Positions 14,122-20,202 of a stretch of DNA of 20,202 nucleotides are shown here, one piece after another (the stretch's first letter is position 1; each line of letters opens with the position of its first letter). Position numbers and translations under genes: made by a program. The stretch comes from a virus. The stretch covers positions 1 through 20,202 of the IMG/VR virus record IMGVR_UViG_3300020416_000079; one strand, 5' to 3'. The notes under the pieces are model-generated. The model made no database searches. It was not told where the DNA came from and saw only the letters and a program-made list of their open reading frames with translations.

Positions 14122-14223
14122 TCAATATTTTGATTTTTTACTAGTCTTTCTTTTCTTTTTCTTTTTCTTTTTCTTTTTAGCTATCGCTATAGCTGCTTGT
14201 TGTGCTCTACTTTTATAAGGCAT
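14122..14223 (-). CDS. 33-residue poly-lysine micro-protein
   Basis: A short ORF whose ATG overlaps the portal stop (TAATG) gives MPYKSRAQQAAIAIA, nine lysines in a row, and then RKTSKKSKY. The opening MPYKSRAQQ is familiar from tiny phage proteins. Sixteen of 33 residues are Lys or Arg, so nucleic-acid binding or DNA condensation is plausible. The gene lies directly after the portal gene and is probably co-translated with it. It belongs in type with the basic proteins at 18186-19607 but is separated from them by terminase and portal. Confidence 0.6.
   Translation of the reverse strand: MPYKSRAQQAAIAIAKKKKKKKKKRKTSKKSKY
14155..14178 (-). repeat. Four tandem AAAAAG units coding for lysines
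   Basis: On the minus strand four perfect six-base units (AAAAAG) encode eight of the nine consecutive lysines of the 33-residue protein. Such a tract is prone to length change by slippage in steps of two lysines, and to polymerase or sequencing errors. Confidence 0.8.
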
Positions 14224-16654: not shown

Positions 16655-18184
16655 TTAATAATAAACCCTTGAAGTAGGAAAGTAATCCTCGTCGTCATAA
16701 TAATCACTTGATAACTTCAAAAAGCCGCCTTCTCTAAATCTAGCAAGTGCTAAAGTTGTAGCGTCTACTAAATCATCATTTTCTCCTGCTGGGAAATCAC
16801 TAACTTCTTCCATAAGTTCTTCACCAAACCTATTATCAGGTACCCAAACTCTACCGTCTTGAAAAATAGGTGATACAGAATTTAATCTTGCTATTTTATC
16901 TTGACCTTTTCCTGGAGAAAATGTATTTACGGGTATACCTATACGTCTAAGTTCTTGTACCAAAGGTATACCTGACGCTTTTGCTTCAATAATTACTGTA
17001 TCGGGTTGCCAATATTCGTATAAACGTAATGCTTCGTTTTTTAATTCTGGAAAATCAAACCTTTCTTTTATACAATCTACTAAAATTAAGTGGGCTTCAT
17101 CACCAGAATACGTTTCTTCACCTATTTTACCTTCTGGATAAAAAACTCCCCACGTTGTTATAGCTGTAAAGTCTGACCTTTCGCTTTTTAAAAACGCAGT
17201 ATCGTAACTTTGTATTAAATAATCACATTTTGGTGGTTTTAATTCTTCCCAAACGTTAAACCAATCTTTAGGAATAATAGAAATACCTTCACCCGTAGGT
17301 CTTTGCATGTATTGTGCCGCCCATTTAGAAGGACTTACTGACGCTTTTATACCTTCAAGTTCTTCTAACTTCCAAAATTCTTTCCATAATGGTTTTCCTG
17401 AAGGTAAAATCGCAGGGAACTCAATAACTTCCCATTGGTCAGCTCCTTTTTCTTGTGCCATTTTCTTAATTAACCTACCCGTTAAGTCTTTTTTATTCCA
17501 ACGGGTCATAACTATTACTATTGCACCTCCAGGCTGTAACCTTTGTCGAGGTCCAGACATATACCATTCGTATGCTTCTTCTAATGCTTTATCTGACATA
17601 GCGTCTTGTTCCGAATGTGGGTCATCAATAATAAACAAATCTGCTCCCCTTCCTGCTAAAGCACCCCCAATACCTGCGGCATAATACTCACCGCCTTTAT
17701 TAGTAAGCCATTTTCCTGCACTTCTACTATCTGCTTTTAGTTCTGTTTCAGGAAAAAGTTCTGCATAATCTTCACCGTCAATTAAGTCCCTAACTTTTCT
17801 ACCGAAATTTACTGCAAGGTCAGCGGTGTGCGTTGCCTCAATGATTTTTAGTTTAGGATTTTTACCTAATAAGTAAGCTGGAAATAAATGCGAAGCAAAT
17901 TCAGATTTAGTATGTCTAGGGGGCATATTAATAATTAATCTTTTTAATTTACCCGTAGCAATATCATCAAATGCTTTTGCCATTTTTACGTGGTGGTCTC
18001 CAGAAATAAAATCTTTCCAGATTGCTTTTACGAAACCTAAAAAATCTTTAGTGGAGTTTTCTTGATGTTCTCTTTTTTCTAGTTGTTCTAAAAGCAGTGT
18101 AAATTCTTTTGCTTCTGTTGTAGAAAAACTAGAAATATCAATTTCTTTTAGAGCCTGAAGTCGTTCCCTAAAATTTTCAGACAA
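16655..18184 (-). CDS. terL: Terminase large subunit (packaging ATPase and nuclease)
   Basis: The 509-residue protein has both terminase domains. The ATPase part has NMPPRHTKSE (P-loop-like, 87-95), LFIIDDP (Walker B, D187-D188) and VIVMTRW (225-229, coupling motif). The nuclease part has SYDTAF (D328), DTVIIEAKASG (E400) and NDDLVDATTLA (D471, D474), the expected acidic metal ligands. It would pump DNA through the portal and cut the concatemer. The HTKS P-loop variant, lacking the classic GKS/GKT, is usual for this group. No small terminase gene is recognisable in the window; it may be further upstream or one of the basic proteins, although none looks like a helix-turn-helix TerS. The 60-residue basic gene precedes it by one base. 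Confidence 0.93.
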   Translation of the reverse strand: MSENFRERLQALKEIDISSFSTTEAKEFTLLLEQLEKREHQENSTKDFLGFVKAIWKDFISGDHHVKMAKAFDDIATGKLKRLIINMPPRHTKSEFASHLFPAYLLGKNPKLKIIEATHTADLAVNFGRKVRDLIDGEDYAELFPETELKADSRSAGKWLTNKGGEYYAAGIGGALAGRGADLFIIDDPHSEQDAMSDKALEEAYEWYMSGPRQRLQPGGAIVIVMTRWNKKDLTGRLIKKMAQEKGADQWEVIEFPAILPSGKPLWKEFWKLEELEGIKASVSPSKWAAQYMQRPTGEGISIIPKDWFNVWEELKPPKCDYLIQSYDTAFLKSERSDFTAITTWGVFYPEGKIGEETYSGDEAHLILVDCIKERFDFPELKNEALRLYEYWQPDTVIIEAKASGIPLVQELRRIGIPVNTFSPGKGQDKIARLNSVSPIFQDGRVWVPDNRFGEELMEEVSDFPAGENDDLVDATTLALARFREGGFLKLSSDYYDDEDYFPTSRVYY

Positions 18185-18185
18185 T

Positions 18186-18368
18186 TTATTTTCCTACTTT
18201 TTTCATCGCAATTTTATGCGATTGTCCAAAAGTCTTACCTGCTCTCATCAATTTTTTCATCTCGGTCATATGTTTAGCCGTATGGTGTTTTTGATGCCTT
18301 TTCAAAGTATCTTTTTGTCTTTGCGTTAGTTGTTTTAACTTACTACGCTTTTTTCTTTTTTCTGCCAT
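18186..18368 (-). CDS. 60-residue basic protein, KHM/SH motif
   Basis: About a third of the residues are Lys or Arg (21 of 60) and five are His. The protein starts MAEKRKKRSKLKQLTQRQK and has HHTAKHMTEMKKLMRAG followed by TFGQSHKIAMKKVGK. I recognise the HTxKHMxxMxxLMxxGxTFxxSHxxAM pattern from tiny phage proteins without assigned function. A strong AGGAGG stands seven bases before the ATG, inside the previous gene. The two genes overlap by 26 bases, and terminase starts one base later, so it is coupled to both. It may bind DNA. Confidence 0.75.
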   Translation of the reverse strand: MAEKRKKRSKLKQLTQRQKDTLKRHQKHHTAKHMTEMKKLMRAGKTFGQSHKIAMKKVGK

Positions 18369-18651
18369 TGGTTTTCCTCCTTTTTACAATAGTTCTTACG
18401 TTAGTTGGTTTACCACCAGGATTTCCTGCTGCCCTTTTTCTACGTACTGCACTTCTTCTTTGTGCCGCTGTCATAGTTCTAGCTTTAGCTCGTGGAACAC
18501 ATTTAGGATATTTTCTTTTAGATTTACCTTTAGCAGATTTACGACCGCATTTTTGGAACTTACCTTTTTTCTTAGGTGCTCCTATATCTACCCAATCACC
18601 TTTCGGTCCTTTACCGAACCAAGCGGTTAATCCGCCTTTAGGTTTAGCCAC
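18343..18651 (-). CDS. 102-residue basic protein, cysteine and GRKSAKG motif
   Basis: The protein begins MAKPKGGLTAWFGKGPKGDW and has VDIGAPKKKGKFQKCGRKS, then KRKYPKCVPRAKARTM, and TAAQRRSAVRRKRAAGNPGG, ending in a basic tail. The two Cys (C35 and C51) lie 16 apart, too few for a standard zinc site. I recognise this highly conserved small protein from phages and large algal viruses, with no known function. The charge suggests nucleic-acid contact, for example in packaged DNA. It overlaps its neighbours at both ends (8 and 26 bases). Confidence 0.75.
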   Translation of the reverse strand: MAKPKGGLTAWFGKGPKGDWVDIGAPKKKGKFQKCGRKSAKGKSKRKYPKCVPRAKARTMTAAQRRSAVRRKRAAGNPGGKPTNVRTIVKRRKTNGRKKKKA

Positions 18652-18940
18652 TTTTCTTCCTCGCTTTCCTAATAGCTTCTTTACCGCGTTTAAATATACC
18701 TACTACTTGTGTTTTACCCATAACTTTAGCTCTTTGTTCCCCTACTGTAAGTATTTGTATTTTTCTAGCAAAAGGTTTTTTAACTTTTTTAACTTTAGCC
18801 ACTGTAGCTCTCGCGTCTGCTGGTGTAGCGAATTTAATTTTAACAGTGTCTTTAGGATTTTCATCAGTATATAATCTTCTACCAGAACCTTTAGGTTTTT
18901 TACCAGTACCTTTTTTCGGGTCACGTTTTTTCCTAGACAT
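18644..18940 (-). CDS. 98-residue basic protein, RRLYTDENPKDT motif
   Basis: The N-terminal 20 residues are very basic (KKRDPKKGTGKKPKG), followed by GSGRRLYTDENPKDTVKIKF. A helical region comes next (ATPADARATVAKVKKVKKPF, ARKIQILTVGEQRAKVMG) and then a basic end. The central part looks like a small folded domain with a basic tail on each side. The motif occurs in other phage micro-proteins that I remember, but no function is known. It overlaps the next gene by eight bases and meets the previous one at a shared base (18940). Confidence 0.75.
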   Translation of the reverse strand: MSRKKRDPKKGTGKKPKGSGRRLYTDENPKDTVKIKFATPADARATVAKVKKVKKPFARKIQILTVGEQRAKVMGKTQVVGIFKRGKEAIRKARKKSG

Positions 18941-19131
18941 TACGAACTACGGTAACCACCACCACGTTTTTTATATTCTCTTACTAACCAACCGTTAGCA
19001 TAAGCTGAAGGGTAAACTTTAAATTTACGTTTAGCTTCTGCTTTTACTCTAGCGTATAAAGCTGGGTTAGTTGGTTTAGCACCACCTTTCTTAGCAGCTT
19101 TTTTCTTTCTTTTCGCTCTTTTTTCAGCCAT
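18940..19131 (-). CDS. 63-residue basic protein, YPSAYANGWLVREYKKRGG motif
   Basis: The N-terminus is Lys/Ala-rich (MAEKRAKRKKKAAKKGG). The C-terminal two-thirds carry ALYARVKAEAKRKFK and YPSAYANGWLVREYKKRGG, a motif strongly conserved among marine phages. The alternation suggests a helix plus a short strand that could bind DNA. The ribosome site AGGAGG is five bases before the ATG, within the end of the previous gene. No function is known to me. It is one of six neighbouring basic genes. Confidence 0.8.
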   Translation of the reverse strand: MAEKRAKRKKKAAKKGGAKPTNPALYARVKAEAKRKFKVYPSAYANGWLVREYKKRGGGYRSS

Positions 19132-19133
19132 AC

Positions 19134-19313
19134 CTACCTCCTTCTTTTAGATGTTGACCTTGCTTGTTTAAAATTCTTTTTAGTTGGGGCACCTTTACTT
19201 CCTGGTTTACGCATACGTTCACCACTACCAGCTTTTATACGTTTACGTTTTGCATGAATATTAGCCCATAATCCTGGACGTTTACTTTTACCTTTTTTAC
19301 TATGTTTTGGCAT
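19134..19313 (-). CDS. 59-residue basic protein, GLWANIHAKRKR motif
   Basis: This short gene lies in the apparent gap between two basic genes. It begins MPKHSKKGKSKRPGLWANIH and continues AKRKRIKAGSGERMRKPGSK, then APTKKNFKQARSTSKRRR. Lys and Arg are 23 of 59. The KRPGLWANIHAKRKRIKAGS block is a widespread phage motif that I recognise, without a reliable function. Its ATG directly follows the stop of the previous gene, and its end supplies the AGGAGG ribosome site of the next, which strongly supports it as real. Confidence 0.8.
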   Translation of the reverse strand: MPKHSKKGKSKRPGLWANIHAKRKRIKAGSGERMRKPGSKGAPTKKNFKQARSTSKRRR

Positions 19314-19607
19314 TTAACACTTCCATCTTCGTCTTGCTTGTCTCAACCTAGAATTAGGATTTTTTGCTGCCTTCGGAAACTTTTTCATCTGTCCTGCTGA
19401 ACGTGCACAATAAGACTTTCTTCTTTTAGCAGCTTTACTACCTTTTTTAACTTTACCTGTAACAGCAGTTTTTAATTTACTTCCAGGATTTTTACGTCTA
19501 TAGGCAGCAACACCTTTTTTAGTCATTCCCGCACCAGATTTAGTCGGTCTATAATTACCGCCTTTACCTGTGGTACGTCTAATTGATTTTTCTTTTTTCC
19601 TTGGCAT
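19314..19607 (-). CDS. 97-residue basic protein, DUF6321-like
   Basis: The protein has MPRKKEKSIRRTTGKGGNY, then SGAGMTKKGVAAYRRKNPGS, KLKTAVTGKVKKGSKAAKRR and YCARSAGQMKKFPKAA, ending RRRWKC. I associate the CARSAGQMKKFP block with the DUF6321 family; the name is from memory. It has two cysteines and many Gly and Lys. Conservation of this exact block across phages with very different capsids suggests a strict role, possibly with DNA during packaging. It is the first of the six basic genes and is followed directly by the 59-residue gene. Confidence 0.8.
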   Translation of the reverse strand: MPRKKEKSIRRTTGKGGNYRPTKSGAGMTKKGVAAYRRKNPGSKLKTAVTGKVKKGSKAAKRRKSYCARSAGQMKKFPKAAKNPNSRLRQARRRWKC

Positions 19608-19627: not shown

Positions 19628-20202
19628 TTATTTCCTACGTGACTTAATATACTTGACGAATTCTCTCGCCTGAACTAAATCATCAAGTTCTGCTAAAGAT
19701 AATTCGTCTAAAATTTCTGTAGTTCTTTCAGGCATTAGTGAAACTAAAGTATCTGATTGGTCACTTCTTCTAGTCGGGTACCGTATAGAATCTATGCCTT
19801 TATCTTTTAAAACGTCACCTGCTTTTTTAGTAAATCCTGTAGGTGCTCCGCTTAATATCGGTGCACGAGTTTGACTTAATTGAAAAGCAGCTTCGTCAAA
19901 ATTACCATCTTTAGTAAGTTGTTTTTCCATTTGTTTAAATAATTTTTCTGTCTTTTTATCTAAATTACCTGCTACTATAGTGTTTTTAAAATCAGGTCTG
20001 ACAATATACGCTGAACCTGCTCCTTGGGAGGGGCGAAAAACATAATCTCTTAATCTAGGGTCAAAAAAATCATCTGTAAAATAAAGTCCTCCTGGAGAAC
20101 TACCTTTCGGGTTTAAAAGTAATTGTGGTATACCTTTTGTTGTACTACCGTGAAATATATTTCTAGGGTCTTTTATTAAACTTTCTAAACCATAATCTCT
20201 AT
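19628..20202 (-). CDS. C-terminal part of an ADP-ribosyltransferase-like phage protein (partial)
   Basis: The frame is open from the window edge (20202) to a stop at 19628, 190 residues, with the only internal Met at residue 91. The start is therefore outside the window, and a Met-to-stop reading would lose half of what is visible. Reading from the edge gives IFHGSTTKGIPQ (H17), GGLYFTDDFFDPR (Y40), AYIVRPDFKN, then DKGIDSIRYP (133-142) and TLVSLMPERTTEI (151-163). This order resembles the HGTS ... YFTDxxxxA ... KGYDxI ... VVFxPxxI series of ADP-ribosyltransferase-like domains in phage polyvalent proteins. The usual Glu before the last strand appears as Ser-Asp (D150), so activity is uncertain. 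The final 30 residues are helical with a basic end (IKSRRK). A virion-packaged host modifier is possible. Confidence 0.6.
   Translation of the reverse strand, partial: RDYGLESLIKDPRNIFHGSTTKGIPQLLLNPKGSSPGGLYFTDDFFDPRLRDYVFRPSQGAGSAYIVRPDFKNTIVAGNLDKKTEKLFKQMEKQLTKDGNFDEAAFQLSQTRAPILSGAPTGFTKKAGDVLKDKGIDSIRYPTRRSDQSDTLVSLMPERTTEILDELSLAELDDLVQAREFVKYIKSRRK

Follow-up and report, generated by a model that had tools for sequence, protein, structure and literature searches.

The window, i.e. the whole stretch of DNA analysed, comprises the 20,202 bases of a virus record in which every identified gene lies on the minus strand, in the order p0, p6, p5, p4, p3, p2, p1, TerL, portal, a 33-aa poly-lysine ORF (p7), GroES and MCP; tail, fibre and endolysin genes follow after the gene for the major capsid protein. 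The context genes were recognised by their PHROG matches (TerL, at 16655..18184 directly downstream of the block: phrog_38, E 3.5e-111; portal: phrog_1216; GroES: phrog_3188; MCP: phrog_371). The block comprises, all on the minus strand, p6 (19314..19607, 97 aa), a DUF6321 module with the motifs CARSAGQMKKFP...RRRWKC (PF19846, E 2.8e-12); p5 (19134..19313, 59 aa), with GLWANIHAKRKRIKAGSGERMRKPGSKGAPT (phrog_16028, E 2.3e-24); p4 (18940..19131, 63 aa), with YPSAYAN, the N-terminal half of DUF5872 (PF19197, E 2.8e-10); p3 (18644..18940, 98 aa), with RRLYTDENPKDT, matched by the profile of an N-terminal module of T4-like phages (3.5e-16); p2 (18343..18651, 102 aa), with WVDIG..CGRKSAKG..KYPKC, the C-terminal half of DUF5872 (phrog_23735, E 2.2e-24); and p1 (18186..18368, 60 aa), with KHMTEMKKLM (phrog_31838, E 1e-10). 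From p6 to p1, in the order of transcription, the gaps are 0, 2, -1, -8 and -26 nt, with a further 1 nt to TerL. The start codons listed are GTG for p2 (18343-18651) and TTG for TerL (16655-18184), and the real start of TerL may lie further in. The six ORFs (59–102 aa) are extremely basic, with a K+R content of 33–39%, a net charge of +18 to +35 and a pI of 10.8–12.0; in the 26 other window genes examined, K+R does not exceed 16% (median 9%). The six consecutive small basic genes before TerL described in the initial annotation are therefore present with their ORFs, place and overlaps as claimed, every one of the six motifs quoted there occurs in the ORFs, and the seventh, poly-lysine gene announced after the portal corresponds to p7 (14122..14223, minus strand; MPYKSRAQQAAIAIAKKKKKKKKKRKTSKKSKY), whose ATG overlaps the portal stop codon.

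That p1–p6 are real genes follows from the homologues found in each family and from the median pairwise dN/dS, which ranges from 0.18 to 0.35 in the six families vs 0.09 for TerL (up to 70 sequences per family, pairs with dS of 0.1–1.5) and indicates purifying selection on all six. Together with the gene spacing, these data rule out chance ORFs or a frame artefact. The possibility that p1–p6 are repeat copies of one gene is ruled out by the specificity of the profiles: those built from the p2, p3, p4 and p6 modules of T4-like phages each match only their own counterpart among eight window proteins, in agreement with the earlier statement that the genes are not copies of one another. Upstream of the block lies a variable gene, p0 (19628..20200, minus strand, with its start outside the window), which differs strongly among phages whose TerL is 100% identical and for which profile searches identified no confident family. 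Inspection by eye of p0 (19628-20200; in contig L002, 596-1633) revealed invariant HG...GGxY...E positions resembling those of the ADP-ribosyltransferase fold, compare Alt of T4, an internal head protein. The assignment of p0 as an ADP-ribosyltransferase was rejected, as Pfam gave only weak matches (RES in 2 of 13 members, ART-PolyVal in 1 of 13); the comparison with the PDB yielded nothing convincing (best E 0.16).

Two of the window proteins are members, above the curated cut-offs, of Pfam families without an assigned function. The p6 protein belongs to DUF6321 (PF19846; 47.5 bits vs a cut-off of 28.5), covering positions 6–72 of the 72-position profile, and p4 belongs to DUF5872 (PF19197; 41.2 bits vs 27.5), covering only positions 1–39 of 116. 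The second half of DUF5872 is p2, whose homologue in P-SCSP2 matches positions 55–112 of 116 (5e-14). DUF5872 as defined is a fusion of p4 and p2, as seen in the fused proteins of contigs L156 and L168 (positions 8–111 of 116); in the window no single protein contains both halves, and p4 and p2 are separate genes with p3 in between. The p5, p2 and p1 proteins match PHROGs without a function, and a homologue of p1 was found in the P-SCSP2 cluster (E 2.7e-20), while p3 has no match among the Pfam or PHROG profiles. A gene of its own in T7-like cyanophages, p5 is joined to p6 in several contigs. Its apparent fusion to ribonucleotide reductase in phage S-B28 was dismissed: the feature concerned (L331 3489-3638) is a mislabelled stand-alone p5 of 49 aa, called 'ribonucleotide reductase A subunit' apparently by propagated misannotation. 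The sequence search for relatives of p6 and p4 with a solved structure returned none up to E 1. Each of the module scans run on viral contigs gave at least 600 matches, and the modules occur in phages of Pelagibacter, Prochlorococcus, Synechococcus and Roseobacter. A scan of genome contigs added 44 relatives, mostly on contigs of metagenome bins or single cells, which we read as phage DNA. DUF5872 is also listed for the algal virus CpV-BQ1 in the table of PMC12085832, as far as that source was available.

In marine T4-like phages, four of the families (p3, p2, p4 and p6) are united in one chain, the T4-GC119 protein. Its version in S-SM2 (SSM2_109, 708 aa) consists of p3, p2, a Cys-variant p4 and p6, and its gene ends directly before gp17. 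A scan with this protein gave at least 597 relatives, of which 80 loci were kept; 64 of the 80 contain an ORF with p2-p4-p6, preceded in 15 of these 64 by p3. Among the 66 fragments that show TerL, the stop codon lies 6–17 nt before it in 49 and 36–2311 nt away in 17; the other 14 of the 80 fragments have no visible TerL. A natural split, with p6 as its own ORF after p3+p2+p4, was found in 4 of the 80 kept loci, and natural fusions of p4 with p2 (DUF5872) and of p5 with p6 occur as well. Profiles made from the fused form recognise the window proteins p2 (4.6e-11), p3 (3.5e-16), p4 (4e-8) and p6 (6.4e-29); judged by such matches, the fused and the separate forms share ancestry. The T4-GC119 proteins (S-SM2 SSM2_109, S-SCSM1_29, S-B43) thus resemble the window in having p2, p4, p6 and often p3 directly or closely before TerL, and homologous p2, p4 and p6 modules adjoin TerL in both. 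They differ in forming one long chain with linkers, a Cys-variant p4 and, in some cases, a DUF192 domain, whereas the window has no such single polypeptide but six separate ORFs, and has p5, p1 and p7 in addition. The DUF192 (COG1430) domain lies between p2 and p4 in some T4-GC119 proteins (aa 310–412 in L377, aa 339–441 in L329). In the fused proteins the net charge per 100 residues is about +16 in the modules and +2 in the linkers. The AQQAAIAI-type motif of p7 recurs in 6 of 93 module ORFs of T4-like phages vs none of 2235 other ORFs at the same loci.

An AlphaFold model of the fused L377 protein (31 sequences) shows confident helices for the p3 part (pLDDT about 90) and moderate helices for p6, while most linkers and, contrary to expectation, p4 are modelled with low confidence; since window p2 modelled alone reached a pLDDT of 68, no fold is claimed for it. 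Foldseek comparison of the L377 model with the PDB gave 3 matches with E <= 0.001, of about the length of DUF192, which we read as matches of the DUF192 part. The viral models that match with E <= 0.001 and bear a name are proteins of cyanophages and uncultured viruses and one podovirus protein, including the 517-aa virion protein of S-SCSM1. No function follows from the Foldseek searches of the PDB or of the viral models.

The modules keep company with each other also outside the fused proteins. Among 53 p2-anchored representatives (77 new loci clustered at 95%), p4 was found within 1.5 kb in 53/53, always upstream and on the same strand; the other modules near p2 were p6 (33), p3 (23), p1 (7) and p5 (5), and the markers TerL (4) and GroES (2). 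Conversely, p6-anchored representatives have p2 in 23/39 and p4 in 22/39 cases, and p5-anchored ones have p6 in 33/61. In a set of 99 p2 representatives the nearest module upstream is p4 within 400 nt in 82 and p3 in 9, the rest having p4 in the same ORF (1), p4 farther away (2) or another module or none (5). The anchored loci are the best-scoring ones among the matches listed and are mutually related, so these counts describe the groups found and not all phages. In the T7-like cyanophage P-SCSP2 a row p4-x-p1-p2-p6 of separate genes lies between scaffold and MCP, and P-SCSP1u has p6 and p5 after MCP. The P-SCSP2 cluster is like the window in having stand-alone p4, p1, p2 and p6 in a row among head genes, and unlike it in its scaffold-MCP site, instead of one before TerL, and in that no p3 or p5 was found in the cluster. 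It also encodes a protein of 41 aa that bears an EF-hand-like DANKDGKISREDF motif (L457 2410-2535); a related DLTGDGEVTKAD stretch is contained in HTVC027P gp44, a basic protein encoded after the portal. The view that p1–p6 form one set, put forward in the initial annotation, has strong support from the fusions, the natural splits and the recurrent clustering. Of the preserved order proposed with it, one part stands: in almost every stand-alone case p4 comes before p2, while p6, p5 and p1 move. The order is p4-(p3)-p2 in stand-alone clusters and (p3)-p2-p4-p6 in fused proteins, and as to presence, p3 is already variable among phages whose TerL is 100% identical.

Could the modules be head-assembly factors, i.e. 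basic partners of an acidic scaffold or of the capsid's inner surface, or packaging-motor cofactors, that are removed from or left in the mature head? The scaffold-MCP site in P-SCSP2 would agree with this, as would the positions in 146 p2 contigs (not de-replicated and with a few fused forms included), where p2 lies before TerL in 28, downstream of the capsid gene in 32 and between portal and GroES in 3, the other 83 showing no marker. In T4, moreover, head assembly is slow when IPIII is mutated, and the core protein gp22 is purified together with the internal proteins (PMC9026906 section 2.3). Against it, the modules are bound neither to one site nor to one motor. Among contigs whose TerL is 100% identical and whose flank is long enough (n=9), 3 have all six modules and 6 lack p3; at 94–98% TerL identity (n=5), only p1, p5 and p6 are kept in 4 and no modules in 1; and at 87–90% identity, again with enough flank, no modules lie beside TerL in 48/48. 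Longer records of the last group contain p6 elsewhere in 5/8 (L025, L027, L057, L062, L067), and in the other 3/8 (L020, L023, L058), which are possibly incomplete, p6 was not found. As modules are gained, lost and moved even at near-identical TerL, a dedicated terminase cofactor is unlikely, and the distribution of the 63 marker-bearing p2 contigs over three sites (28, 32 and 3) weakens the earlier suggestion of an assembly factor set acting with terminase. A fixed terminase cofactor, considered as a candidate in its own right, is likewise weakened by the relocation of the modules. By these genomic comparisons the set is mobile and mixed, with no fixed attachment to the terminase, and we regard a role in head assembly as improbable.

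Relatives of the modules are present in virion records. The virion proteome of S-CREM2 lists ORF137 with 4 unique peptides and a coverage of 4.1% (Table 3 of PMC10665884, a source available in part); the C-terminus of ORF137 is DUF6321 and its gene lies between TerS and TerL. The same table lists the neighbouring ORF136 with 8 peptides and 24.1%. S-SCSM1_29, a p2+p4+p6 protein, carries the label 'virion protein' in its record; 48 features are so labelled and 45 MS-detected proteins are reported in the accessible part of PMC9602691, so the label is probably, not certainly, based on MS. The S-B43 homologue is labelled 'structural protein', and the T4-GC119 homologue of S-SM1, a phage whose virion was analysed by MS according to the part of PMC3037559 at hand, is labelled only 'hypothetical' in its record. 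These records, which concern relatives (S-CREM2, on a partial view of its source, and S-SCSM1) and not the window phage, indirectly support the packaging of the set with DNA. Alternatively, the modules could be cytoplasmic proteins, early or late, that bind DNA or RNA and have no virion role, their detection in virions being contamination; the low coverage (4.1%) of the S-CREM2 relative would fit. Against this explanation stand the head-gene location in several phage types, the leaders on some modules that resemble a capsid-targeting sequence (CTS) and the occurrence of both neighbours, ORF136 and ORF137, in the S-CREM2 list as far as seen, and we consider it highly improbable.

A 10-residue leader targets the internal proteins of T4, which are cleaved behind L/I-x-E, according to the part of PMC9026906 available. 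Leaders of this T4 type (CTS), defined by a regular expression that also matches T4 IPII and IPIII, were found in the p5-anchored set in 4/72 module ORFs vs 11/2246 others (p = 9e-4), a test that is partly post hoc, since the first one, limited to ORFs of 110 aa or more, gave a weak result (2/24 vs 10/826, p = 0.04) and was redone at 60 aa after contigs L183 and L215 had been seen. In both of these, IRFK(E/N)FISEA stands directly before DUF6321. In the p6- and p2-anchored sets no module ORF has a CTS (0/177 and 0/226), inspection by eye of those T4-GC119 N-termini that were read revealed none, and, again by eye, none of the six window proteins begins with a CTS ending in L/I-x-E. When 56 representative fused proteins were compared at their module borders, no enrichment of the strict T4 site L/I-x-E was seen (42/163 vs 117/560, p = 0.2); a broader border motif, picked by eye after looking, is enriched (105/163 vs 147/560). 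Processing of the fused form as a polyprotein is plausible. In T4-like contigs, proteins with the motif GRFxPPTxGH, which we take to be nucleotidyltransferase-like, also begin with a T4-type CTS (L176 2033-3931, L228 681-1616, L245 7042-9054). As cyanophage virions are reported to contain NMNAT-like proteins (PMC9602691, available part), these CTS-bearing proteins may be packaged enzymes.

Taken together, the charge, the head-gene location and the relatives in virions suggest, with a rough probability of 0.55, that the window block is the 'split' form of the same modules as in T4-GC119 and that these are modular small basic internal head proteins packed with DNA and working like IPI–III of T4. 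The modules would be made late together with the head genes, enter the prohead and remain inside the capsid, touching the packaged DNA, which their positive charge would screen; some may be injected along with it. In T4-like phages the prohead protease may cut the long form into modules, while the window phage would simply encode them as separate genes. For the window phage, the location in the capsid lumen and the binding of DNA, like the cleavage of the long form, are what we infer. The T4 internal proteins are basic, each is present in about 300 copies, and at low salt they bind DNA (PMC9026906 section 2.3). Like them, the window proteins are small and basic (59–102 aa, net +18 to +35). The T4 proteins are found in the virion and are CTS-targeted, whereas a CTS occurs on a few module proteins of relatives and on none in the window; K+R amounts to 18–19% in T4 IPII and IPIII vs 33–39% in the window proteins, and none of 10 module profiles significantly matches IPII or IPIII. 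By analogy with T4 and from the charge, the DNA-condensing or -protecting role proposed in the initial annotation is plausible. The conserved Trp, Cys and Gly residues suggest that bulk charge alone is not the whole function, and the conserved Trp, the Cys pairs and the YPSAYA and GSG motifs argue that, besides being charged, the proteins bind a specific partner. Since the same modules occur in phages with different heads and, on the partial source cited above, in an algal virus, DNA would be the simplest shared partner.

Specific conserved motifs, unlike those of a simple polycation, would also be expected of another class of head-packed proteins, namely injected proteins for host takeover or genome defence such as IPI* or Alt of T4, with host nucleases, the nucleoid, ribosomes or RNA polymerase as targets. 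T4 IPI inhibits a restriction enzyme, and the host RNA polymerase is a substrate of Alt, which modifies it (PMC9026906, available part). The gain and loss of modules between near-identical phages is as expected of host-matched accessory proteins, and CTS-bearing nucleotidyltransferase-like proteins occur at the same loci. However, phages of Pelagibacter, Prochlorococcus, Synechococcus and Roseobacter share the modules, an odd breadth for host-specific effectors, and the DUF5872 family includes the protein listed for CpV-BQ1 in the seen part of its source. We therefore consider injected effectors a rather unlikely explanation, and prefer internal head proteins packed with DNA.

A bolder form of the preferred reading, which we put forward tentatively and hold to be possible though not probable, is that of an exchangeable kit of phage 'chromatin' modules, comprising at least seven families (p1–p7), that neutralise and order the capsid DNA and that unrelated marine morphotypes and, via DUF5872, giant algal viruses mix, fuse and split, with the polyprotein of T4-like phages cut in the prohead. 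If so, the window phage would encode directly what a T4-like phage makes by proteolysis. In the literature searches on DUF6321, DUF5872 and the set, nothing was recognised as describing the set. The families are common among the small genes of ocean phages and have no known function; with the modules recognised as one set, with relatives in virions and with fused and split forms homologous, several DUFs and unnamed PHROGs become one question, the role of basic proteins inside phage heads. This question dates from the discovery that the internal proteins of T4 are abundant and bind DNA, yet can be dispensed with (PMC9026906 section 2.3). Cultured pelagiphages and cyanophages with these modules exist, which makes the question directly testable.
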